This document shows, one piece after another, positions 9,362-51,148 of a DNA stretch of 64,000 bases. The position numbers and the translations under genes are program-made. The notes under the pieces are model-generated. The model had not been told where the DNA came from. It searched no databases and worked only from the letters and a program-made list of their open reading frames with translations. Within the stretch, counting starts at the first letter, position 1; every line of letters starts with the position of its first letter. Source of the stretch: Aquimarina sp. MMG016 (GTDB taxonomy: Bacteria > Bacteroidota > Bacteroidia > Flavobacteriales > Flavobacteriaceae); NCBI RefSeq assembly GCF_018100805.1, contig NZ_JAGJEA010000004.1, forward strand, positions 1-64,000, given 5' to 3'.

Positions 9362-11566
9362 ATGACCGAAGCTGCTATAGAAAAAGAAAACAAACAAATT
9401 GCAAAGCAATACAAAGAATTGCTTCGTATTAGCTATCGAGATCTTAGTACTGAAGATAAAAAACTAATACGTCAAGCATTCGATATTGCGGTAGACGCCC
9501 ACAAAGACCAACGTCGTAAAAGTGGAGAAGCTTATATTTTCCACCCTATAGCAGTGGCCAAAATTGTAGCTAGCGAAATTGGATTAGATGCTACATCTAT
9601 TGCTGCTGCATTACTTCATGATGTAGTAGAAGACACAGAATACACTTTAGTAGACTTAGAACAAATGTTCGGAGAAACGGTTGCCAGAATTGTTGACGGT
9701 TTAACTAAAATTTCTTCTTTAAAAAAGGATAAAGATATTTCGCTTCAAGCAGAAAACTTCAGAAAAATGCTACTTACTCTTAATGATGATGTTCGCGTTA
9801 TTATCATTAAGATTGCAGATCGTCTGCACAATATGCAAACTATGGACGCAATGCGACCGGATAAACAAGTCAAAATTGCTTCGGAAACATTATATATTTA
9901 TGCTCCTTTAGCCCATAGAATTGGATTATACAACATAAAAACCGAGCTCGAAGATCTAGGTTTAAAATATACTGAACCCGAAGTATATAAAGATATACTG
10001 GAAAAAATTAATGAAAGTAAAGAAGAGCAGGACGCATATATCAAAAGGTTTTCTGATAAAATAAAAGAAGGGCTTGACAAAGAAGGTTTGAATTATGAAA
10101 TTCAAGGACGCCCGAAATCCATTTTTTCGATCCGACGAAAAATGGTGAAACAAAACATCACTTTTGATGAAGTATACGACAAGTTTGCTGTTAGAATTAT
10201 ATATAAATCTGATATCCCAAACGAAAAATTCATTGCCTGGAAAATTTATACAGTAGTTACAGATTTTTATCGACCTAACCCTACTCGATTAAGAGATTGG
10301 ATTACTCAACCAAAAACTACTGGTTATGAAGCACTACACATCACTGTTGTAGGACCGGACAGCCAATGGGTAGAAGTACAAATCCGGAGTGAGCGCATGC
10401 ACGAGATTGCCGAAAAAGGATATGCCGCTCATTATAAATATAAAAACAAAGAAGAAAAACAAGATCAAGGCTTAGATGGATGGCTAAATAAACTTCAAGA
10501 AGCATTGGAAAATTCAGAGTCTAATGCCGTAGATTTTGTAGAAGAATTTAAGCTTAACCTATACGCTAAAGAAATTTTTGTTTTTACTCCCGAAGGAGAT
10601 CTTAAATCATTACCTAAAGGCGCCACTGCTTTAGATTTTGGATTTAGTGTCCATACTGAAATTGGACTTAGAACCCGAGGAACCAGAGTAAATGGAAAAT
10701 TAGTCCCTCTTAGCCACGAACTTAAAAGTGGTGATCAGGTAGAAATTATTACTTCTTCTAAATCCAAACCCTCGTCCAGTTGGTTAGATTATGCTACAAC
10801 CGCAAGAGCAAGAGCTAGAATTAAATCTGCATTACGAGACGAAAAGAAACAAATCGCCGAAGACGGAAAAGCAATTCTAAAACGTAAGCTTCGTTCTCAG
10901 AAAATAACAATGAATGAGAAAGTAGTAAATGAGCTTGTACTATTTTTTAAACTAAAAACAAGTTTAGATCTTTTCTATCGTGTAGGAATCGGAACAATTG
11001 ATAATCATAAAATTAAAGATTTTGCTACAACTCGTAGTAATGTCTTTATGAACTTTATCAAAACCCGAATGCGTAGAAATAATGCTAAAGATGTAAACAA
11101 AGAAGAAATAACATCTAAGTATGACCTACTGGTTTTTGGCAAAGATTCCGAAAAACTAGAATACAAGCTTTCTAATTGTTGCAATCCAATTCCCGGTGAT
11201 GACGTTTTTGGATTTATTACAGTAAATGAAGGAATCAAAGTACATAAGAAGAATTGTCCTAATGCATTGCAATTACAAAGTAATTATGCATACCGTATAA
11301 TGCTTGCTAAATGGATTGATTCTAGTCAGGAAGAATTTAAAGCTGTTATTAAACTTAACGGTATTGATAATATTGGTGTCGTAAATGAGGTTACTCAAAT
11401 TATTTCCAACAATATGCATCTAGCCATGTACAACATGAATTTCGACACTAACGATGGTGTTTTTATAGGAAGAATTACTGTTGGTGTTAAAAACAAAGAC
11501 ATACTCAAAACCGTAATGAAAAATCTTTCCAAAATAAGTGGTATTGATAAAGTAGTCAGAGAATAA
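9362..11566 (+). CDS. rel: Bifunctional (p)ppGpp synthetase/hydrolase (RelA/SpoT family)
   Basis: Makes and degrades the alarmone (p)ppGpp. The 734 residues run HD hydrolase, synthetase, TGS, a Cys-containing zinc-finger-like region and ACT. Hydrolase motifs are intact: FHPIAVA, LLHDVVEDT and ADRLHNM. In the synthetase, RLRDWITQPKTTGYEALH has the basic RxKD-type charge pattern of bifunctional enzymes rather than the acidic pattern of synthetase-only RelA; VEVQIRS follows. TGS begins at IFVFTPEGDLK, CCNPIPGDD and KKNCPNA mark the Cys region, and ACT lies at the end. A Fur-family gene starts 30 bases downstream. Confidence 0.95.
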   Translation: MTEAAIEKENKQIAKQYKELLRISYRDLSTEDKKLIRQAFDIAVDAHKDQRRKSGEAYIFHPIAVAKIVASEIGLDATSIAAALLHDVVEDTEYTLVDLEQMFGETVARIVDGLTKISSLKKDKDISLQAENFRKMLLTLNDDVRVIIIKIADRLHNMQTMDAMRPDKQVKIASETLYIYAPLAHRIGLYNIKTELEDLGLKYTEPEVYKDILEKINESKEEQDAYIKRFSDKIKEGLDKEGLNYEIQGRPKSIFSIRRKMVKQNITFDEVYDKFAVRIIYKSDIPNEKFIAWKIYTVVTDFYRPNPTRLRDWITQPKTTGYEALHITVVGPDSQWVEVQIRSERMHEIAEKGYAAHYKYKNKEEKQDQGLDGWLNKLQEALENSESNAVDFVEEFKLNLYAKEIFVFTPEGDLKSLPKGATALDFGFSVHTEIGLRTRGTRVNGKLVPLSHELKSGDQVEIITSSKSKPSSSWLDYATTARARARIKSALRDEKKQIAEDGKAILKRKLRSQKITMNEKVVNELVLFFKLKTSLDLFYRVGIGTIDNHKIKDFATTRSNVFMNFIKTRMRRNNAKDVNKEEITSKYDLLVFGKDSEKLEYKLSNCCNPIPGDDVFGFITVNEGIKVHKKNCPNALQLQSNYAYRIMLAKWIDSSQEEFKAVIKLNGIDNIGVVNEVTQIISNNMHLAMYNMNFDTNDGVFIGRITVGVKNKDILKTVMKNLSKISGIDKVVRE

Positions 11567-40598: not shown

Positions 40599-41690
40599 AT
40601 GAAAATATTAGTCATTCAACAAAAAATGATTGGTGATGTACTCACCAGCACTATTATTTGCGAAGCATTACGAAAAGAGCATCCTAATGCGACTATTGAT
40701 TATCTTGTGAATTCTAGCACAAAACCAGTTATACAGGAAAATCCTTTTTTTGATCATATTATTGAGTTTAAAAACGAATATCGAGATAGTAAAAAAGAAT
40801 TTTACTCGTTTTTAAAAAAAATACGAAGCTCTAAATACGATCTTGTTATTGATGCCTACGGAAAATTAGAGAGTAATCTAATTTCATTATTCTCTGGAGC
40901 TTCAGAAAAAATCTCTATGTATAAATGGTATACTCAATTTTTATACACAAAAACTATACATAGAAAATCTGAACCTATTACTAATGCTAGTATTGCCATA
41001 GAAAACAGATTACGCCTGGTCATTCCGGAAAATCGAATTGCCACCGAAATTATAAAGCCCAAAATATTCTTAACCCAGGAAGAAAAAGATAAAGCCTCCG
41101 AATACCTGGAGTCTAATGGTATTTCTGACAAGACCCCTTTAATAATGATTAGTGTTTTGGGTAGCGACATGAGAAAAACGCTACCTTTTAAATATATGGC
41201 AGAAGTGATTGATAAAATTGTTGCGATCACAGGAGCTAATATTTTATTTAACTACATTCCTAGCCAGGAAAAAGATGCACGAACCATATATAACTTTACT
41301 AATTTAAAAACGCAAAGAAATATTCATTTTGATGTATTCGGGAGAAGTCTCAGAGGGTTTATCGCTATTCTTTCGCATTGTGATGCACTAATAGGTAATG
41401 AAGGCGGTGCTGTGAACATGGCTAAAGCATTAAACAAGCCTACATTTACTATTTTTTCTCCCTGGATTATAAAGAAGGACTGGAATATGTTTGAGGACGG
41501 TATCGATAATGACTCCATACACCTTATTGATGTAAAACCTGAATTATATGGAAACAAATCTCCAAAAGACATGAAAAATCAAGCACTGGAGTTGTATAAA
41601 GAATTTTCATCAGATGTAATTATCCCAAAATTGCAAACGTACTTGAACAACTTAGAGATTAATTCTTTTCAATCCCAAAAGGGGTTCTGA
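40599..41690 (+). CDS. Glycosyltransferase family 9 (heptosyltransferase-like)
   Basis: GT-B fold enzyme of 363 residues of the kind that adds heptose to the inner core of lipopolysaccharide. The start MKILVIQQKMIGDVLTSTII is typical, with the acidic residue of IGDV serving catalysis in the family. The C-terminal donor site includes SHCDALIGNEGGAVNMAKALNKP (in part: LIGNEGGAVNMA) and TFTIFSPW. Its 3' end overlaps the convergent GT2 gene by 32 bases. It opens the surface-glycan island. Confidence 0.92.
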   Translation: MKILVIQQKMIGDVLTSTIICEALRKEHPNATIDYLVNSSTKPVIQENPFFDHIIEFKNEYRDSKKEFYSFLKKIRSSKYDLVIDAYGKLESNLISLFSGASEKISMYKWYTQFLYTKTIHRKSEPITNASIAIENRLRLVIPENRIATEIIKPKIFLTQEEKDKASEYLESNGISDKTPLIMISVLGSDMRKTLPFKYMAEVIDKIVAITGANILFNYIPSQEKDARTIYNFTNLKTQRNIHFDVFGRSLRGFIAILSHCDALIGNEGGAVNMAKALNKPTFTIFSPWIIKKDWNMFEDGIDNDSIHLIDVKPELYGNKSPKDMKNQALELYKEFSSDVIIPKLQTYLNNLEINSFQSQKGF

Positions 41691-42480
41691 TCACTTTATT
41701 CTTTTTGGTCATCTTTCGGATTACATTATTTTTCTCAATCATTTCAGGTTTAACATAACCTCTTTCATGATAAAGATGTAAACAAATAGCACTATATCTA
41801 ATTTGTTTCGCCTTGATCCCCATATTGAATAACCGTTCACCTATTTCCCGATCTTCTCCACCGTATTGCATTCTTTCATCAAAACCATTAACAGCTAACA
41901 CATCTTTTTTCCAACCAGAAACATTCATTCCATCCCAAGTGGCTTTAGTTGGTGTAATGAAATTTAAAAAACGTTCTTTAACTCCTGTAGAGGTTAATTT
42001 ATTTAACTTAAAAGAAGACTTTAGCCCTTTACTTTTTAACCATTTTACATCAAAGCTTCTTTGATCCTGTATATCTTCTTTTGAAATTAGTTCAGAAATT
42101 GATTTTGGTAATTTAAAATACCCTCCGGACAGGAACCAACCTTTTTCTCTTAACCTTACATGGGTCTCAACAAAATCCCAGCGAGGAATACAATCTCCAT
42201 CAGTAAACAAAAGATAATCAGCTTCTGATTGCAAAACTGCTTTATTAAGTATTACGGTTTTTCTAAAACCTTTATCCTCATGCCAAACATGTTTTATTTT
42301 AAAGCTAGACGCTTTAGAAAATGCTTCTATAACTTTTTTAGTATCTGTTGATGAACCGTCATCAGCTATAATTATTTCGAAGTTTTTAAAACTTTGACAC
42401 TCATAACCCAACAAGACTTTCCTCAACCATTCTGATTGGTTATAGGTACTAATGATTACGGTGACTTCTGGTAATTGCAT
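41659..42480 (-). CDS. Glycosyltransferase family 2
   Basis: GT-A fold enzyme of 273 residues. VTVIISTYNQSEWLRKVL is the nucleotide-binding start, IIADDGSS the first acidic motif, and FTDGDCIPRWDF the metal-binding DxD-type motif. The C-terminal YGGEDREIGERLFNMGI resembles the ED motif of galactosyltransferase-like C-terminal domains. It is closely similar in plan to the GT2 at 44175-44975. Tail-to-tail overlap of 32 bases with the GT9 gene is unusual. Sugar and acceptor are unknown. Confidence 0.9.
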   Translation of the reverse strand: MQLPEVTVIISTYNQSEWLRKVLLGYECQSFKNFEIIIADDGSSTDTKKVIEAFSKASSFKIKHVWHEDKGFRKTVILNKAVLQSEADYLLFTDGDCIPRWDFVETHVRLREKGWFLSGGYFKLPKSISELISKEDIQDQRSFDVKWLKSKGLKSSFKLNKLTSTGVKERFLNFITPTKATWDGMNVSGWKKDVLAVNGFDERMQYGGEDREIGERLFNMGIKAKQIRYSAICLHLYHERGYVKPEMIEKNNVIRKMTKKNKVIRTPFGIEKN

Positions 42481-42495
42481 TGTGGTAAAAATAAC

Positions 42496-42503
42496 TATTT
42501 TTG
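42496..42503 (+). promoter_or_regulatory. -7 promoter box of the second GT2 gene
   Basis: TATTTTTG matches TAnnTTTG; the ATG at 42557 is 53 bases downstream, in the divergent gap between two GT2 genes. Confidence 0.4.
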
Positions 42504-42556
42504 CACGATACCTTCATAAAAACAATAGATATCAATCAATTTCTTAAAATATTCAG

Positions 42557-43318
42557 ATGATCAAACTCTCAGCTGTTATTATTACCTACAATGAAGAACA
42601 GAAAATAGAACGTTGTCTTTCTTCTTTGGCTGGCGTAGCTGATGAGATTGTGGTTGTGGATTCTTTTTCTACTGATCGCACAGAAGAGATTTGCAAAGCA
42701 TTTAATACAAAATTCGTTAAGCAGAAATTCTTAGGATATATAGAACAGAAAAATTTTGCCATTACTCAGGCAACACACGATTATATTATCTCTCTGGATG
42801 CAGATGAAGCATTATCTCCAAAACTTCAAGAGTCTCTACTTAAACTGAAATCTAATTGGAAACTCGATGGTTACTATATGAATCGGTATAATAATTTCTG
42901 CGGGCAATGGATCAAATACTCTGATTGGTATCCGGATAAAAAACTAAGGGCTTTTAAAAAAGGAAAAGGAGAATGGCAAGGAATTAATCCTCACGATTCT
43001 TATACATTATTTAATCAGAAATCTTCAGCAAAGCTGAAAGGCGATATCCTACACTGGAATTATACTAATTATCAAGAATTTAATCTAAGCACAGACAAAT
43101 TCTCAACTATCTCTGCTAATTCTTATTATAAGTTAGGAAAAAAAGCACCTATTTGGAAAATCATATTGAATCCAAGTTGGGCTTTTTTTAAATCTTATTT
43201 TTTAAGATTAGGTTTTCTAGATGGTTTGAATGGTTTTGTTATTTGTATACAAACCGCAAATATTACATTCCTGAAGTACACTAAATTAAGAGAGTTAATC
43301 AAGAAAAATAAATCATAA
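42557..43318 (+). CDS. Glycosyltransferase family 2 (WaaE/KdtX-like)
   Basis: GT2 enzyme of 253 residues resembling the LPS core beta-glucosyltransferases (WaaE/KdtX group). The signature start is LSAVIITYNEEQKIERCL with VADEIVVVDSFSTDRTEEI, and the metal site is YIISLDADEALSP. QGINPHDSYTL and the C-terminal hydrophobic helix (FFKSYFLRLGFLDGLNGF, near 205-225) are typical for this subgroup. It supports an LPS-core role for the island. Confidence 0.9.
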   Translation: MIKLSAVIITYNEEQKIERCLSSLAGVADEIVVVDSFSTDRTEEICKAFNTKFVKQKFLGYIEQKNFAITQATHDYIISLDADEALSPKLQESLLKLKSNWKLDGYYMNRYNNFCGQWIKYSDWYPDKKLRAFKKGKGEWQGINPHDSYTLFNQKSSAKLKGDILHWNYTNYQEFNLSTDKFSTISANSYYKLGKKAPIWKIILNPSWAFFKSYFLRLGFLDGLNGFVICIQTANITFLKYTKLRELIKKNKS

Positions 43319-43325
43319 CTATCTA

Positions 43326-44102
43326 CTAATCTCTATACTTCTTTTTCCAAAAAAAGATCTTACGCTTCAGCTTACGTTTACCGTGATATCTATTCTGAAA
43401 CTCCTGTGTATATTGCCACATCAGATTAAAGATTTTTGATTCATCTTCTCCTGTGCATTTAGCATATTCATTACTCATTACCTTAATCATTGATTCGTGA
43501 ATTGTTAATCGGGCAAAGTTTTTGATACGTGTTTCGAAATCCATTTCACCAAACTCCATCCGGTTTAAATCCACAAGATAGAACTCATAATCTTTATCAA
43601 CTCTTTTAATCAATGTATTCCCGGGGGAGTGATCTAAAAAATTTATTCCGTTTTCATGAAGCTTGTACGTAAATCTAGTAAAAGCTCTGAGAATCTCTTC
43701 GTGATCAGGTATATTAAAATCTGTTGTTAATTCTCGATAAGTCAGATCACAATCCACTAACTCACTGACATAATAACTTCTTTTAAATAAAAATAAAGTA
43801 GTCTGAACTTCATAAGCCACCGGAAAAGGTGTTAAAACACCCAAATCAAGCAACTGGTTAGCATACATAAATGAACGTTCTGCTTTAGATTTTCTAAAAA
43901 AACGATATGCAATTTGGTTGATTAGATTAGGTATTTTAAAAGATTTAATCGTAAGATTTTTACCTTGTAAAGGTATAATCTTGATTACATTTCGTTCTGC
44001 ATCTCCAAGAATATCGGCATAACTATCAAAATTTTCAACAGCATTTTTGATTTCTTTTTTTACATCTTTATAAGAATTGTGAATATGTAATTGACCTGGC
44101 AT
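43326..44102 (-). CDS. Kdo/lipopolysaccharide kinase-like protein
   Basis: Protein-kinase-fold enzyme of 258 residues in the InaA/KdkA group, which phosphorylates Kdo or core heptose of LPS. The catalytic loop is FLDHSPGNTLI, with Asp and Asn five residues apart, followed by the metal-binding YLVDLNRMEFG. RSYYVSELVDCDLTY is the hinge. A kinase in place of a second Kdo is common in bacteria with a single-Kdo core. It follows two glycosyltransferase genes on the same strand (72 bases). Confidence 0.87.
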   Translation of the reverse strand: MPGQLHIHNSYKDVKKEIKNAVENFDSYADILGDAERNVIKIIPLQGKNLTIKSFKIPNLINQIAYRFFRKSKAERSFMYANQLLDLGVLTPFPVAYEVQTTLFLFKRSYYVSELVDCDLTYRELTTDFNIPDHEEILRAFTRFTYKLHENGINFLDHSPGNTLIKRVDKDYEFYLVDLNRMEFGEMDFETRIKNFARLTIHESMIKVMSNEYAKCTGEDESKIFNLMWQYTQEFQNRYHGKRKLKRKIFFWKKKYRD

Positions 44103-44120
44103 AGTTCAAAAAATAAGGAA

Positions 44121-44128
44121 CAAAGATA
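44121..44128 (-). promoter_or_regulatory. -7 promoter box of the Kdo-kinase-like gene
   Basis: On the minus strand TATCTTTG matches TAnnTTTG and lies 18 bases upstream of the ATG, so this gene may be transcribed independently of its upstream neighbours. Confidence 0.4.
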
Positions 44129-44174
44129 TTTATTTTAGCATAGCATATAGAGAATTACCAATTCATTATGACAT

Positions 44175-44975
44175 TTAAGTCAGATACTTATCAATACCAT
44201 TCTGGCATCTAATAATTCTCTCCGAAACCGTTTTATTCTGAATTTTATTACCCTTATCAGGATTTTCAAGAATAGATGGTTTATGATAAATATGAAAGCA
44301 AATTCCGGTAAACTTCAGTCGCTTTGGCATTTTACCTAAAAAAGTCAATCGCAAGCCAAAATCGTAATCTTCGAACCCCCATCCCAGATAATCTTCATTA
44401 TATCCGTTAATTGCAATAGCATCATCTTTCCAATAAGACATATTTGCTCCTCTCAATTTGCCTGTCACTGATTTTTCTGGTTTTCTAGTTTTATAAACAA
44501 AAGGCAGGTATAATGCTCTCATTCTTTTCTTCAAACCGCTAGAAAATAAGTTTAAATTAGATTTTTTTTGAGAAAGTATTCTTTCTGACTTTTCTTTGGT
44601 TAAAGTTACCCTTGATCCAAATAAAAACAAGTTCTTATTACAATTTTCAAGATGATTTTTCACAAAATGTTTATGTAAAATAATATCACCATCTATCTGT
44701 ATAATATACTCAGATCTAATTGTTGCAATTGCTTTATTTAGTATTATTGTTTTAGTAAATCCATTGTCTTCGTGCCAAATATGGCGCAAAGGAATAGGAA
44801 ATATGTTCTTATAACCATTTATCAACTCCTTAGTTTCATCTTTAGAACCATCATCTGCTATTACTACCTCATCCGGTATTACAGACTGATTCAACACACT
44901 CTTTAGCACCAAATCCAAAGCTTCTGGCCAGTTATATGTAGAAATTAACAAGGTAACACTTGGGTAATTATTCAT
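44175..44975 (-). CDS. Glycosyltransferase family 2
   Basis: GT-A fold enzyme of 266 residues with the same plan as the GT2 at 41659-42480. VTLLISTYNWPEALDLVL begins it, then VIADDGSKDETKELI, the metal site IQIDGDIILHKHF, and GWGFEDYDFGLRLTFLGK near the C-terminus. Its start lies 10 bases after the stop of the CgeB-like transferase gene, so the two form an operon. Sugar and acceptor cannot be predicted. Confidence 0.9.
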   Translation of the reverse strand: MNNYPSVTLLISTYNWPEALDLVLKSVLNQSVIPDEVVIADDGSKDETKELINGYKNIFPIPLRHIWHEDNGFTKTIILNKAIATIRSEYIIQIDGDIILHKHFVKNHLENCNKNLFLFGSRVTLTKEKSERILSQKKSNLNLFSSGLKKRMRALYLPFVYKTRKPEKSVTGKLRGANMSYWKDDAIAINGYNEDYLGWGFEDYDFGLRLTFLGKMPKRLKFTGICFHIYHKPSILENPDKGNKIQNKTVSERIIRCQNGIDKYLT

Positions 44976-44985
44976 CTATTTATAT

Positions 44986-45936
44986 TTACTTTAATCCAAA
45001 AACCTCATCAACCCAAAAAGATAAAGTATACCTTTTGTATATCTCTTTCGGGATTTGCTCATATGGAGTTTCAAAAAAAGATTTTGGTATTTCTATATTA
45101 TCTTTATCAACTACCAAAATATTATTAGGGTTATAAAAATCATACGTAATGATATCCTTATTAGTAGTAATCAATTTTTTAGAAAACCCAATACTCTCAA
45201 AAACCCTAAAAGTCAAACCTGCCTGATTTTCTCTATGCACATCTAACAAAACATTTGATTGAGAAATAAACTGTTCTACTTTATTCAGATCCATGGTATT
45301 TCTAGAATATTCAATTTTAGTAGTCTTATCGCTTTCTGAATTTTTACCTACTATTACAATCTTGTATGCAATATTTATTTTATCTAATGCTAAAGCAATA
45401 TTTTGTATCACTTTATCCCGTTTTCCTGATGAGCTAATGTTAAATATTTGATAATCATTAGAGTTACTTGCATGGCTATTTTCTTTATAAATGAAATTAG
45501 TTATAAACGAAAAACCAAAACGTTCAACATCCTCTTTCTCAAAAGAATAAGCCTTATCAAAAACATCATAAATCTTTGATATTTTAGGCGATCTTCTGTA
45601 GTTGTCATTAAAAAACCCAAGCAGATGATCTGTATACGGCTTTATCTTTTTGATAAAATCCGGATTTAAAAAGTCACCTTTTATAATTAAAATTTTATCT
45701 TGGTGCCCATTTGCATTCAATTCATTAAGAATTTTTTTCTCTAGAAACTTCTTTTTTATATTATATTTAAAAAAAAGTTTTGTGAAGAAATTGAAAATCT
45801 TGTGAAAGAAAGTAGGGTATTGGTAGCGTAGTTGATAAAAATTTATTTGGTTAACCTCAATGTTTTTGCGTTCTAATTCTTTAGCAATAAATTGATTAAA
45901 CCCCCAGTTATCTAAGCTGATTAATGTGATTTTCAT
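44986..45936 (-). CDS. CgeB-like glycosyltransferase
   Basis: A 316-residue protein resembling the CgeB/Glyco_trans_1_2 group of GT-B enzymes. Support comes from the C-terminal half: KIVIVGKNSESDKTTKIEYS, SNVLLDVHRENQAGLTFR and VFESIGFSKKLITTNKDII, which match the donor-binding region (E-x-x-x-x-G then K-L-I-T). The N-terminal half is less conserved. It precedes the GT2 gene by 10 bases on the minus strand. Assignment is moderate. Confidence 0.78.
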   Translation of the reverse strand: MKITLISLDNWGFNQFIAKELERKNIEVNQINFYQLRYQYPTFFHKIFNFFTKLFFKYNIKKKFLEKKILNELNANGHQDKILIIKGDFLNPDFIKKIKPYTDHLLGFFNDNYRRSPKISKIYDVFDKAYSFEKEDVERFGFSFITNFIYKENSHASNSNDYQIFNISSSGKRDKVIQNIALALDKINIAYKIVIVGKNSESDKTTKIEYSRNTMDLNKVEQFISQSNVLLDVHRENQAGLTFRVFESIGFSKKLITTNKDIITYDFYNPNNILVVDKDNIEIPKSFFETPYEQIPKEIYKRYTLSFWVDEVFGLK

Positions 45937-45984
45937 ATATAGTTATATAATACAATATTAAGAATTTAATACTTAAAACAAGAC

Positions 45985-45992
45985 TATATTTG
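45985..45992 (+). promoter_or_regulatory. -7 promoter box before the methyltransferase gene
   Basis: TATATTTG matches TAnnTTTG, 52 bases upstream of the ATG at 46045; no convincing -33 box. Confidence 0.35.
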
Positions 45993-46044
45993 AAATCAAA
46001 ACTTACTTGCTATAATTTTCTTTAATTGAAAAATAATTACTTAA

Positions 46045-46686
46045 ATGGATTACCATAATAAACCTGATAATTATTACAATAATACTAGGCATGAAATGCT
46101 TACTTTTCTCCCTAAAGGTTCTAAAACAGTATTAGATATTGGATGTGGAGAAGGAGCTTTTTCGGGTTATATTAAGGAAAAATACAATGCTGAAACCTGG
46201 GGAATTGAGCTAATGCCGGAGCATGGTAAAAAAGCAGAAAAAGTACTGGATAAAGTTTTTATTGGTGAGTGCGAAAAATTGATTGACGACCTCCCTGACA
46301 ATTATTTTGATGCCATATATTTCAATGATGTTTTGGAACATTTGGTGGATCCATATTGGGTATTGGAAAAAATAAAAAGTAAACTATCGGATAACGGCGT
46401 CATTATAAGCTCTATACCTAATATTAGATATCACAGTGCTCTAAAGAGTCTAGTGATTAATAAAAATTGGGAATACAAGGATAATGGAGTTATGGACAAA
46501 ACTCATTTACGATTTTTTACAGGCAAAAGTATTGCTAATATGTATAAAAGGCTTGGATACAAAATAATTACTCATAAAGGAATTAACAGAACCAAATCTA
46601 TAAAGCCATACTTCTACAACATTCCATTTTTGTTTACTGCTATGGATATGTGGTATTTGCAATATGCAACTGTTGTAAAAAAATAG
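46045..46686 (+). CDS. Class I SAM-dependent methyltransferase
   Basis: A 213-residue methyltransferase (Methyltransf_11/23 type). Motif I is VLDIGCGEGAFSGYI, the acidic motif is WGIELMPEH, and motif IV is FDAIYFNDVLEHLVDPYW. The last 30 residues contain a short hydrophobic stretch (YFYNIPFLFTAMDMWYL) that may touch the membrane. Position within a glycosyltransferase cluster suggests it methylates a sugar or glycan end, which is inference. The first GT4 gene starts 24 bases downstream. Confidence 0.87.
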   Translation: MDYHNKPDNYYNNTRHEMLTFLPKGSKTVLDIGCGEGAFSGYIKEKYNAETWGIELMPEHGKKAEKVLDKVFIGECEKLIDDLPDNYFDAIYFNDVLEHLVDPYWVLEKIKSKLSDNGVIISSIPNIRYHSALKSLVINKNWEYKDNGVMDKTHLRFFTGKSIANMYKRLGYKIITHKGINRTKSIKPYFYNIPFLFTAMDMWYLQYATVVKK

Positions 46687-46710: not shown

Positions 46711-47697
46711 ATGAAAATACTTATCGTAGATAAATCTGCCAAAATACCCGCAACAAAATATGGTGGTACAGAGCGCGTTATATGGGGCTTAGGAAATGAA
46801 CTTGTCAAACTAGGACACAAGGTATCTTTTCTGGTTAATAAAGAGTCTTCTTCAGATTTTGCTAAAATAATCCCTTTTGACGATAAGAAAACTATTAATG
46901 ATCAGATTCCGGGCGATATTGACATAGTTCATCTCAATCATGCTATAGATGAAAATATTAACAAACCATTTTTAATCACAATGCACGGTAATCCTGGTAT
47001 CAATCAATTAATTGATATCAATACAGTTTTTATATCTAAAAACCAGGCAAAAAGATACAATTCTAATACATTTGTTTATAATGGATTGGATTGGAGCGAT
47101 TATCCAAAACCCGTATTAAATCAAGAAAGAAAATATCTACATTTCCTTGGAAGAGCTCCCTGGAAAATAAAAAATGTTTTTGGTGCTGCAAAAATCGCGA
47201 TAAAATCAGACAACAAACTTCATATTTTAGGAGGAGATAGATGGACATTTCGAAATTTCAAAAGAGGTTTTAAATATATTCTTAATCCTAATATTATATT
47301 TAGAGGAATGGTGGATAATTCTACCAAAATGAACATTATGAAAAATTCCAAAGGACTAATATTTCCTGTAATATGGCACGAACCTTTCGGATTGGCTATT
47401 ATAGAAAGCCTGTATGCTGGCTGCGCAGTTTTTGGAAGTAAAAATGGATCCTTAGAAGAACTTATAACTCCACAAGTTGGCTACACCAGTAACAATTCAA
47501 ATGAACTTGCAAAAGCTATAAAAGAGTTTGATTATAATCCCAAAATATGTTATGAATATGCAGTTAACAACTTTAATTCAAAGATAATGACAGAAGAGTA
47601 CATAAAACTTTATGACAAAGTACTCTCTGGAGAAAAACTGAATTCTGAAATTCCAGAATATATAGAAGCAGAGAATATAATACCAAAATTTATCTAA
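46711..47697 (+). CDS. Glycosyltransferase family 4, copy 1
   Basis: GT-B fold transferase of 328 residues. KYGGTERVIWGLGNELVKLGHKV is the N-terminal acceptor-side start (in part: YGGTERVIWGLG). The donor site is FPVIWHEPFGLAIIESLYAG, with the family E-x7-E pattern. It is the same length as copy 2 at 48479-49465, and the two align without gaps at roughly two thirds identity by eye. Its stop overlaps the sua5 ATG by one base (TAATG). It is the first gene of the duplicated block. Confidence 0.92.
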   Translation: MKILIVDKSAKIPATKYGGTERVIWGLGNELVKLGHKVSFLVNKESSSDFAKIIPFDDKKTINDQIPGDIDIVHLNHAIDENINKPFLITMHGNPGINQLIDINTVFISKNQAKRYNSNTFVYNGLDWSDYPKPVLNQERKYLHFLGRAPWKIKNVFGAAKIAIKSDNKLHILGGDRWTFRNFKRGFKYILNPNIIFRGMVDNSTKMNIMKNSKGLIFPVIWHEPFGLAIIESLYAGCAVFGSKNGSLEELITPQVGYTSNNSNELAKAIKEFDYNPKICYEYAVNNFNSKIMTEEYIKLYDKVLSGEKLNSEIPEYIEAENIIPKFI

Positions 47698-48266
47698 TGG
47701 CAGATCAACAAGTAGAAATGGAAAAAGCACTCACAACCCTAAAACGAGGAGGACTTATCCTCTATCCCACTGATACGGTATGGGGAATCGGTTGTGATGC
47801 AACAAACGCAGAAGCTATCGACAAAATATTTGCTCTAAAACAAAGAGAAGAGAGTAAATCTATGATCTGTTTAGTTAGTGATTTTAAAATGCTTCAGCAA
47901 TATGTTGAAGAAGTTCCAGAAGTAGCGTATGACATACTTAAATATGCCAAAAAGGCTACGACTATAATCTATGACAGGCCACTGCGAGTAGCAGAGAATA
48001 TTATCGCTGATGACAATACTTTAGGTATACGTGTGGTTAGAGATCCTTTTTGCGGAAGATTAATTCGAAAATTCAAGAGACCAATCGTTTCTACTTCAGC
48101 AAATATTAGTGGTAAACCTACGCCAAACAACCTAAAAGAAATAAGTAAAGAGATTTTGGAAGGCGTAGACCATATAGTAAATTTGCCGTTACAAAATAAA
48201 GGTGTTAAACCTTCTTCAATTATCAAAATAGGAGGAGATAGTACTGTAAAAATTATTAGGAAGTAA
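47697..48266 (+). CDS. L-threonylcarbamoyladenylate synthase (Sua5/YrdC family)
   Basis: Makes threonylcarbamoyl-AMP from threonine, bicarbonate and ATP, the first step of t6A37 tRNA modification. The 189 residues have the YrdC fold: RGGLILYPTDTVWGIGCDA, the KQREESKSMICLV segment, LGIRVVRDPFC and PIVSTSANISGKPTP. It is the single-domain length, without the extra Sua5 C-terminal domain. Its 3' end (from 48087) plus the following bases is duplicated at 49522-49726, where only a sua5 remnant survives. Confidence 0.93.
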   Translation: MADQQVEMEKALTTLKRGGLILYPTDTVWGIGCDATNAEAIDKIFALKQREESKSMICLVSDFKMLQQYVEEVPEVAYDILKYAKKATTIIYDRPLRVAENIIADDNTLGIRVVRDPFCGRLIRKFKRPIVSTSANISGKPTPNNLKEISKEILEGVDHIVNLPLQNKGVKPSSIIKIGGDSTVKIIRK

Positions 48267-48291
48267 ATTGTTCATGTCCGAAACTAAAAAT
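48087..48291 (+). repeat. 205-nt direct repeat, copy 1 (sua5 3' end plus cca start)
   Basis: Aligned with 49522-49726 at a constant offset of 1435 bases with no gaps; the first 80 bases differ at about one position. It spans the end of sua5, the 7-base spacer and the first codons of a cca copy. Confidence 0.9.
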
Positions 48292-48430
48292 CATTGCTCT
48301 CTCAGAATCCTTATATCATCTTTTGATGATTCATTAAGAACGATGAGAGCTGTCCGATTTACAATTTAGTTGAATTTTAAAATTGAAGAAAAGTCATTAG
48401 ATACTATTTCTGAAAAATTAAGATTTATTA
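48274..48430 (+). pseudogene. Remnant of a tRNA nucleotidyltransferase (cca) gene
   Basis: ATG 48274 starts with MSETKN, matching MSEAKN of the intact cca at 49709. The frame then jumps over about 480 bases to FDDSLRTMRAVRF, matching SDDPLRMMRAIRF in cca near residue 170. A stop (TAG at 48367-48369) follows, and beyond it LNFKIEEKSL matches LNFKIEDKSL. It is an internally deleted, nonsense-containing duplicate of the first 200 codons and is not functional. It marks copy 1 of the duplicated block. Confidence 0.88.
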
Positions 48431-48478
48431 TTGTTTTTGGATTACAATCTATATTATATAAAAACTAAAAACCACATA

Positions 48479-49465
48479 ATGAATATACTTATAGAAGATA
48501 AAACTGCTGTACTACCAGTTAAAAAATATGGAGGTACAGAACGCGTAATATGGGGCCTAGGAAAAGAATTAGCTAAAATGGGGCACAAAGTATATTTTTT
48601 AGCAAAAAAGGGATCTCATAGTGATTTTGCAACTGTAATTAATTTTGATGAAACAAAAGATATAAAAGATCAGATTCCTCAAGAGATAGATGTGGTACAT
48701 TTATTTCATTCATCCGGAAAAAATTTAGATAAACCATATCTCTTTACTATGGAAGGTAACCCTCCTCCTAATCAAGTATTAGATAACAATATGGTTTTTG
48801 TTTCCAAGAATCACGCTAATAGATATGGTTCTAATTCATACGTATACAACGGTATTGATTGGGATGATTATCCTGATCCCATTTTGGATGGAGAGAGAAA
48901 ATACCTTCATTTTCTTGCTAAGGCCTCTTGGAAAATAAAAAACCTATTTGGCGCAACAAAAATAGCCTTAAAATCAGGAGAAAAACTTCATGTAATGGGA
49001 GGAGATAGATTGACATATCGTAATATCAAAAGAGGGTTAAAGTACATATTAAATCCAAACATCATTTTTCTTGGCATGGTAGAGAACGATGTTAAAATGA
49101 AGGTTGCACAAAATTCAAAAGCTCTTGTTTTTCCTGTAATATGGCACGAACCATTTGGGATAGCTATTACCGAAAGTATGTATGCTGGCTGCGCAGTTTT
49201 TGGAACTAAAAATGGGTCTTTAAAAGAGTTAATCACACCAGAAGTAGGATTTACAGGTTCTAACTCGGACGAAATAGCAAAAGCCATAAGAGAGTTTGAT
49301 TACAATCCCAGACGATGTCATGAATATGCTGTTAAGTACTTTAATTCTAAAGTAATGACCGAATCTTATCTTAAGCTTTATAAAAAAGTTATGCAGGGGG
49401 AAAAGCTGAATCCAGAAAATCCTAAGTACATAGCATCAAAAAATACTGTCCCCGAATTTAATTAG
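48479..49465 (+). CDS. Glycosyltransferase family 4, copy 2
   Basis: Paralogue of the GT4 at 46711 with exactly the same length, 328 residues, from ATG 48479; the frame is open for 16 codons upstream, but those codons have no counterpart in copy 1. KYGGTERVIWGLGKELAK begins it, and FPVIWHEPFGIAITESMYAG is the donor site. All motifs are intact and the divergence is mostly conservative, so it is probably functional, perhaps with a different sugar or acceptor. It is followed at once by the sua5 remnant. Confidence 0.91.
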   Translation: MNILIEDKTAVLPVKKYGGTERVIWGLGKELAKMGHKVYFLAKKGSHSDFATVINFDETKDIKDQIPQEIDVVHLFHSSGKNLDKPYLFTMEGNPPPNQVLDNNMVFVSKNHANRYGSNSYVYNGIDWDDYPDPILDGERKYLHFLAKASWKIKNLFGATKIALKSGEKLHVMGGDRLTYRNIKRGLKYILNPNIIFLGMVENDVKMKVAQNSKALVFPVIWHEPFGIAITESMYAGCAVFGTKNGSLKELITPEVGFTGSNSDEIAKAIREFDYNPRRCHEYAVKYFNSKVMTESYLKLYKKVMQGEKLNPENPKYIASKNTVPEFN

Positions 49466-49701
49466 TGGAAGATCACCAGTAGAAATAGAAAAGCATTTAC
49501 AATTCTAAAATAGCTTATTTTGTTTCTACTTCAGCAAATATTAGTGGTAAACCTACGCCAAATAACCTAAAAGAAATAAGTAAAGAGATTTTGGAAGGCG
49601 TAGACTATGTTGTAAATTTGCCACTGCAAAATAAAGGTGCTAAACCTTCTTCGATTATCAAAATAGGAGGTGATAGCACTGTGAAAATTATCAGGAAGTA
49701 A
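49465..49701 (+). pseudogene. Remnant of a threonylcarbamoyladenylate synthase (sua5) gene
   Basis: The first 57 bases match the start of sua5 at 47697, with the ATG changed to GTG, and hit a stop after five codons. About 335 bases are missing. From 49522 the sequence matches the last 180 bases of sua5 almost perfectly, ending at the same TAA. It cannot make the enzyme. It marks copy 2 of the duplicated block, where the downstream cca is the intact one. Confidence 0.9.
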
Positions 49702-49726
49702 ATCGTTCATGTCCGAAGCTAAAAAT
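49522..49726 (+). repeat. 205-nt direct repeat, copy 2
   Basis: Partner of 48087-48291. It covers the sua5 remnant's 3' end, the same 7-base spacer and the first 18 bases of the functional cca gene. Confidence 0.9.
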
Positions 49727-51148
49727 TATAAAGAAGCACTACAACACCCTATTTTTAAAACAATTACTCAAGCAGCAGCCAATCTAAATCTTGATAGCTA
49801 TGTCATTGGAGGGTTTGTAAGAGACTATATACTACAAAGAGGAAACGCCAAGGATATTGATATTGTAGCTGTCGGCAGTGGAATAGAACTCGCCAAAGAA
49901 GTTTCCAGACTTTTACCAAATAATCCTAAAGTTCAGGTTTTTAAAACCTATGGTACTGCGATGCTAAGATCCGACGAAATCGAAGTTGAATTTGTTGGAG
50001 CACGCAAGGAATCTTATACCGAAGATAGTCGTAATCCAATGGTAGAAAATGGAACTCTGGAAGATGACCAAAATAGAAGAGATTTTACCATCAATGCATT
50101 GGCGCTAAACTTAGCTAAAGATCATTTTGGAGATATTCTCGATCCTTTTGATGGATTAGAAGATTTGAAGTCAAAAATCATTCGCACTCCTCTGGATCCT
50201 GATGTCACCTATTCTGATGATCCACTCAGAATGATGAGAGCCATTCGATTCGCAACGCAGTTGAATTTTAAAATTGAAGACAAATCATTAAGAGCAATCT
50301 CTAAGAATAAAGATCGCATTAAGATCATCACCAAAGAACGAATTGTTGATGAGCTTCATAAAATATTATTAAGTGACAGACCTTCAGTTGGCTTTAAATT
50401 ATTGGAGACTACAGGACTTCTTCCATATATTTTACCCGAATTAGTTGCCTTAAAAGGTATTGATGAGATCGAAGGTCAAAAACACAAAGATAATTTTTAC
50501 CATACACTAGAAGTAGTTGACAATATTTCTGAAAACACAGATGATCTATGGTTACGCTGGGCTGCTTTACTACATGATATAGGCAAGGCTCCCACTAAAA
50601 AATTTAGCAAAAAAGTAGGATGGACATTTCACGGTCACGAATTTGTGGGCTCTAAAATGGTTTTTAAATTATTTAAGCGTCTAAAAATGCCTCTGAATGA
50701 AAAGATGAAGTTTGTTCAGAAAATGGTATTAATGAGTTCTCGTCCTATTGTGATTGCTTCAGGAGTTACGGATTCTGCAGTTCGCAGATTGGTTTTTGAT
50801 GCCGGAGATTATATTGAAGAATTGATGACGCTTTGCGAAGCAGATATTACGACCAAAAACCCAAAACGTTTTAAGAAATACCATAACAATTTTAAGATTG
50901 TTCGCCAAAAGATGATTGAAGTTGAAGAACGGGATCATATTCGTAATTTCCAACCACCGGTTACTGGTGAGGAAATTATGGAAACCTTCAACATTAAACC
51001 TTCACGAGAAATCGGAATCATAAAAGAGGCTATAAAAGAAGCTATTCTAGAGGGTGAAATACCTAATGAACACAAAGCAGCATATCAGTTTATGATTAAG
51101 AAAGGAGGAGAATTAGGGTTGAAAATTACTAAGAATCTTCATAAATAA
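49709..51148 (+). CDS. cca: CCA tRNA nucleotidyltransferase with HD domain
   Basis: Adds or repairs the 3' CCA end of tRNAs. The 479 residues start with the class II polymerase beta-like head: YVIGGFVRDYILQRGNAKDIDIVA with the catalytic DxD, then EDDQNRRDFTINALAL and YSDDPLRMMRAIRFATQL. RDRIKIITKERIVDELHKIL (in part) follows. A C-terminal HD domain has WAALLHDIGKAPTKK and FHGHEFVG, which usually gives phosphohydrolase activity. It is complete, in contrast to the remnant at 48274, and belongs to copy 2 of the duplication. Confidence 0.94.
   Translation: MSEAKNYKEALQHPIFKTITQAAANLNLDSYVIGGFVRDYILQRGNAKDIDIVAVGSGIELAKEVSRLLPNNPKVQVFKTYGTAMLRSDEIEVEFVGARKESYTEDSRNPMVENGTLEDDQNRRDFTINALALNLAKDHFGDILDPFDGLEDLKSKIIRTPLDPDVTYSDDPLRMMRAIRFATQLNFKIEDKSLRAISKNKDRIKIITKERIVDELHKILLSDRPSVGFKLLETTGLLPYILPELVALKGIDEIEGQKHKDNFYHTLEVVDNISENTDDLWLRWAALLHDIGKAPTKKFSKKVGWTFHGHEFVGSKMVFKLFKRLKMPLNEKMKFVQKMVLMSSRPIVIASGVTDSAVRRLVFDAGDYIEELMTLCEADITTKNPKRFKKYHNNFKIVRQKMIEVEERDHIRNFQPPVTGEEIMETFNIKPSREIGIIKEAIKEAILEGEIPNEHKAAYQFMIKKGGELGLKITKNLHK

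Follow-up and report, generated by a model that had tools for sequence, protein, structure and literature searches.

Two alleles of one glycosyltransferase slot, probably joined by recombination beside a trimmed sua5-cca repeat, in Aquimarina sp. MMG016

Two genes for GT4-type glycosyltransferases stand a short distance apart in Aquimarina sp. MMG016, and the question is whether the second was made by duplication or brought in. They lie at 46711..51148 of the window, by which we mean the whole 64,000-nucleotide (nt) stretch analysed (contig NZ_JAGJEA010000004.1, positions 1 to 64,000). Each is followed by material from sua5 and cca, the genes for L-threonylcarbamoyladenylate synthase and a CCA tRNA nucleotidyltransferase-like protein. 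An initial annotation proposed that a GT4-sua5-cca block had been copied in tandem, with reciprocal loss, as a way of adding a glycan enzyme. The data suggest instead, with a probability of about 0.62, that recombination joined two alleles of a single glycosyltransferase slot end to end, the flank having been repeated and then trimmed reciprocally. The features are as follows.

46045..46686, + strand: gene for a class I S-adenosylmethionine (SAM) methyltransferase (MT), the left neighbour (PF13489, E 2e-21)
46711..47697, + strand: GT4a, intact GT4-type glycosyltransferase gene, a divergent allele outside the GT4b clade by tree and approximately unbiased (AU) test (PF00534, E 4e-15; EX7E motif at 224)
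47697..48266, + strand: sua5, intact, L-threonylcarbamoyladenylate synthase (TIGR00057)
48274..48424, + strand: cca remnant, in which a short direct repeat links nt 1-21 to nt 465-606, with a stop codon and indels
48425..48478, no strand: junction sequence from the cca remnant to GT4b
48479..49465, + strand: GT4b, intact GT4-type glycosyltransferase gene, in one clade with the GT4 of genomes G018, G028, G017 and others
49465..49701, + strand: sua5 remnant, made up of about 55 nt from the 5' end and the final 180 nt, with about 325 nt lost between them
49709..51148, + strand: cca, intact, CCA tRNA nucleotidyltransferase-like protein with an HD domain

The start of GT4b was set at the homologous ATG at 48479; the TTG chosen by the open reading frame caller, at 48431, lies upstream of it.

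When the region was compared with itself, the repeat in direct order was borne out at similarities far above chance. The 3' end of the sua5 remnant was 92.8% identical to intact sua5 over 180 nt (E 5e-74), and the cca remnant was 76% identical to cca over 143 nt (E 6e-21). GT4a and GT4b were 71% identical over 984 gap-free nucleotides and 67% identical in amino acids. The first copy thus comprises an intact GT4, an intact sua5 and a cca scrap, and the second an intact GT4, a sua5 scrap and an intact cca, so that the redundant sua5 and cca copies were lost reciprocally, as had been annotated. The accompanying statement that both scraps keep their two ends was correct for sua5, whose remnant lacks only the middle and shows, in its 5' part, two 1-nt gaps, 4-nt and 2-nt gaps near the join and an early stop. 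It did not hold for cca. No match to the last 834 nt of the gene (nt 607-1440, the 3' 58%) was found in the cca remnant or the junction. At its internal join, AAAAATCATT matches both AAAAATTAT near cca nt 13 and AAAAATCATT at nt 465, and the gap is flanked by the direct repeats AAAAAT(C/T)AT; because the join letters match both places, the simple reading would be that 452 nt were deleted between these short repeats. A single novel junction was seen, at about 48425, where nt 606 of the cca remnant meets the sequence upstream of GT4b, and it is non-homologous: the 54 positions 48425..48478 showed no detectable relation to the next part of cca, with scores not above those of shuffled sequences.

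The age of the repeat was then set against the age of the GT4 pair. In a tree of 24 GT4 proteins, GT4b fell inside a nine-member clade (100/100) with G013, G017, G023, G009, G018, G006, G028 and G014 (labels of this form denote genomes of the genus sample), and it was 79-80% identical in amino acids to the proteins of G018 and G017; GT4a fell outside. Constraining GT4a and GT4b to be sisters cost 59.6 log-likelihood units and was rejected (AU p = 0.00012), as was forcing GT4a inside the GT4b clade minus G013 (p = 0.00018). Placements of GT4a with group A (G065, G070, G086, G032; p 0.36) or with G019 and G076 (p 0.12) were compatible with the data. The intact sua5 and its remnant, by comparison, were sisters among 51 sequences (100/96).

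Silent sites gave the same contrast. Between GT4a and GT4b the synonymous divergence (dS) was 1.6 and 43/77 fourfold sites differed; between intact and remnant sua5, dS was 0.30 and 4/22 fourfold sites differed. Third-position differences were normalised, at the same codons, by the between-species values of seven of the eight other members of the GT4b clade (G013 omitted), which gave ratios of 0.96 [0.85-1.08] for the GT4 pair and 0.48 [0.24-0.77] for the sua5 pair (P 0.0022); raw Fisher tests of the two pairs gave 1.7e-6 at third positions and 0.003 at fourfold sites. The parts of the repeated block therefore differ in age: GT4a and GT4b are as divergent at silent sites as the GT4s of different species, and the sua5 copies about half as much. 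On these distances the flank was repeated recently and the GT4s diverged long ago, which argues that the second GT4 was not created by the repeat event. The claim that GT4 itself had been copied in tandem is accordingly not supported, and since the GT4s are not sisters and their silent distances are those between species, the extra GT4 more probably entered as a divergent allele than arose by duplication.

The two remnants are unequally decayed. In the last 60 codons of the sua5 remnant, 8 synonymous and 3 non-synonymous changes were counted, with no inner stop. As the differences are mostly synonymous, selection probably acted on both sua5 copies through most of the period after they split, and the second would have died recently. 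In a 96-nt block of the cca remnant, 5 codon changes were synonymous and 11 non-synonymous, one of them a stop, and the longer alignment contained three small indels; with changes mostly non-synonymous, this copy probably died early. Judged by these patterns, the reciprocal losses were not simultaneous. The sua5 comparisons covered 48 or 49 congeners with full-length gap-free alignments, out of the 60 stretches described below. The sua5 remnant has a near-zero branch in trees, and relative-rate counts with 49 outgroups gave a mean of 6.1 changes unique to intact sua5 and 3.8 unique to the remnant (7-10 and 2-4, respectively, with seven near outgroups). This is suggestive at most, and over-conservation of the remnant is not claimed.

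To place the arrangement within the genus, 66 genomes were sampled, and the sua5 stretches of 60 of the 65 others were compared, some of them short because they end at contig ends; G021 (no sua5 match), G073 (weak paralog only), G069, G074 and G087 were left out. A gene was counted as this GT4 type at E<=1e-90. At E<=0.001, 33/66 genomes matched, and the weaker matches (2e-29 or worse) were set aside as other glycosyltransferases. The type was present in 16/66 genomes including our own, which alone has two copies. Among the 15 other carriers, GT4 stands directly upstream of sua5 in ten (G018, G023, G017, G070, G086, G065, G032, G019, G013, G076), is separated from it by one antisense lipoprotein-like gene in four (G009, G006, G028, G014) and lies downstream of it in one (G085). 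Carriers thus commonly have the single GT4-sua5-cca order that had been expected of relatives, and the double arrangement has so far been seen only here. The gap from sua5 to cca was 6-106 nt in all 52 congener stretches with both genes and is 1442 nt in the window, where, as annotated, a GT4 gene has come to separate them. By self-comparison, with some stretches being short, a second sua5 piece was found in none of the 60 other stretches and a cca piece upstream of cca in none of the 52 with cca; short matches within cca itself occurred in five genomes.

Several variations on this order were observed. In eight of the 60 stretches (G057, G082, G005, G007, G077, G030, G085, G075) cca does not adjoin sua5, which there is 65-72% identical, and these eight were excluded from the cca counts. 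The stretch of G085 (L218) has the order sua5, a GT2-like gene, GT4, and contains no cca. The antisense lipoprotein-like gene (L167, L176, L178, L180) has a common leader, MKKIIFLL..., followed by one of two bodies, shared by G028 and G009 or by G014 and G006, which appear unrelated by eye. In G080 (L163), cca is closely followed by two further copies of its own 3' tail (oriented positions 10055-10106 and 10157-10209), which suggests repeats of the flank beyond the other end of the pair too.

The position just upstream of sua5-cca, at which a variable glycan locus ends, holds different GT4 types or other genes among relatives. Between G014 (L176) and G028 (L167), identities were 93% for MT and 92% for GT4, followed by 86% for sua5 and 86% for cca, whereas G014 and G086 (L183) were 92% identical in sua5 and 90% in cca and had GT4 genes of different types. 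Slot and flank are thus discordant among these three relatives, and different GT4 types are shown to meet the same sua5-cca flank in the genus. Judged by identities only, with no formal recombination test, G014 looks recombinant at the GT4 slot, with a breakpoint near GT4/sua5. The competence genes dprA and comEC are present in our genome; each also matches in 10/14 control genomes, so their presence says little.

Under the favoured explanation, DNA of a close relative, carrying another GT4 type and its own sua5-cca flank, would have recombined into the lineage, and both alleles would have been retained as [MT-GT4a-sua5-cca(first 606 nt)] followed by [GT4b-sua5-cca]. Incoming and resident alleles both being kept fits the apparent exchange in G014; the incomer could be GT4a or GT4b. 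A homologous exchange at one end and an illegitimate junction at the other would suffice. The non-homologous junction would be that at about 48425, and the homologous end was not found in the window. The truncated cca would have been trimmed early, by the 452-nt deletion and point decay, and the second sua5 recently, by the deletion of about 325 nt, an order suggested by the unequal decay of the remnants.

A number of observations weigh against joined alleles. The closest relative of GT4a in the genus is only 69% identical, so that no donor is known; of 397 genomes sampled from the family, 7 besides our own matched GT4a at E<=1e-60, with 46-61% identity, and no donor allele could be identified among them either. 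GT4a shows no compositional contrast (31% v 34% guanine plus cytosine). Its placement as sister of the whole GT4b clade is compatible with the data (AU p 0.315), and it may hold that position. Only 59 codons of sua5 underlie the silent-site contrast. For the cca remnant, the candidate parents (77.8% identity to the window's own cca, 76.8% to that of G016) are poorly separated (support 52/0), so the remnant is no proof of a foreign flank. No remnant of MT or of the MT spacer was found at the junction. A remnant of the MT 3' end upstream of GT4b, plausible by eye, was rejected, since it scored no higher than dinucleotide shuffles for six MT 3' ends including the window's own. Compared with the MT-GT4 spacers of five relatives, the spacer before GT4a gave p 0.14 and the stretch before GT4b p 0.26, and homology is claimed for neither.

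The main rival invokes two steps, an in-lineage tandem duplication of GT4b-sua5-cca(5' part) and a later homologous recombination between MT and sua5 in which a divergent allele replaced the copy-1 GT4. It accounts equally well for a young sua5 pair beside an old GT4 pair, draws on the same apparent exchange of GT4 types at this slot in congeners, and fits nearly as well as the joining of two alleles. We consider it possible though rather unlikely, since it places two events where one suffices and its intermediate was seen in 0/60 congener stretches. More doubtful is an old tandem duplication of the entire block that predates the species split, followed by gene conversion that kept the sua5 copies alike and by loss of one GT4 in all the other lineages. 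The compatible position of GT4a as sister to the GT4b clade would suit it, and a 27-nt identical run, the longest between GT4a and GT4b (permutation p 0.041), is a weak hint of gene conversion. Against such an age, a cca piece dead for so long should be unrecognisable, yet it retains 78% identity (a late death could explain this); neither a second copy of this GT4 type in the 65 other congener genomes nor an upstream flank remnant in the 60 stretches was found.

The simple in-lineage tandem duplication followed by divergence, as first proposed, explains the gene order and the direct repeat and little else: it is contradicted by the rejected sisterhood of the GT4s and by the different silent-site ages of the two pairs, and we regard it as very improbable. 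Equally little credence is given to an assembly chimera of two strains. Mis-joined contigs could bring both alleles of the slot together, but the flank remnants carry deletions and stops that a mis-join would not create, and the genome has a completeness of 99.94 and a contamination of 0.38. Whether the joining of alleles reflects a recurrent route, in which glycan loci gain enzymes by stacking alleles with flank repeat and trimming, recombination being anchored in sua5-cca and each exchange leaving its record in dead pieces of that pair, is a speculative extension that we hold to be improbable, as no such upstream pieces occurred in the other 60 congener stretches.

The whole arrangement sits between MT and cox15, and the MT-GT4 order is the same in G018, G028, G014, G006 and G009. 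Upstream, 40599-46686 of the window is a dense glycan locus with genes on both strands that varies among congeners, encoding a heptosyltransferase-like GT9, GT2 enzymes, a Kdo-kinase-like protein, a WaaS/CpsH-family glycosyltransferase and methyltransferases. These neighbours suggest a lipopolysaccharide-core or surface-glycan locus. Of the flank genes, sua5 scored 145.2 bits with TIGR00057 (cut-off 123.2); cca has the nucleotidyltransferase head, RNA-binding and HD domains (PF01743, PF12627, PF01966), and its best NCBIfam match, TIGR02692, at 338 bits, lies below the cut-off of 439. A second YrdC-domain protein (206 amino acids) is encoded elsewhere in the genome (contig C3, L228, 248-868, minus strand), so the essentiality of the window's sua5 is not to be assumed.

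EX7E is a motif of GT4-type (GT-B) glycosyltransferases, and in GT-B enzymes the acceptor is usually bound by the N-terminal half. Both GT4 proteins carry Glycos_transf_1 (PF00534, above cut-off) and the motif, and no NCBIfam model reached its cut-off for either. Between GT4 types the N-terminal half is more divergent than the C-terminal half (55% v 74% identity for G014 and G086), a contrast that is weak between GT4a and GT4b (64% v 69%). As both genes are intact with EX7E, the net gain would be one more GT4, whose acceptor may differ.

Related processes are known elsewhere. The excerpted text of a study of Enterobacteriales describes surface-polysaccharide loci exchanged by recombination (PMC7305143). 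Variable sugar-enzyme genes swapped between related lineages are common to both cases, and G014 also looks recombinant; here, a single slot beside sua5-cca is concerned and both alleles were retained rather than one replaced. In Streptococcus pneumoniae, natural transformation produces merodiploids with duplications of about 100-900 kb, and excerpts of the same source mention isolates expressing two capsules (PMC3784515). These resemble the window in having both alleles in one chromosome with repeated flanking DNA, whereas the repeat here is about 2 kb, and trimming has left each flank gene intact only once. Homology-facilitated illegitimate recombination, as outlined in part of PMC3240628, has one homologous and one illegitimate end and would yield the order of the window, although the homologous end was not located there. 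The locus was not recognised in the titles and abstract openings of literature on Aquimarina or Flavobacteriaceae and on duplication with reciprocal loss at glycosyltransferase genes, and a search for serotype switching with flanking genes yielded no papers.

The locus is a tidy, informative but ordinary example of known processes of glycan-locus exchange. What can still be read from it is a stage of a surface-glycan locus that lies between replacing an allele and gaining a gene. Two alleles of GT4 coexist here, the other carriers in the genus sample have one each, and the events can be dated relative to one another from the dead flank pieces. Gene duplication should not be assumed whenever a block is repeated and its copies are reciprocally lost, as the variable genes may be old alleles and the flank alone newly repeated.

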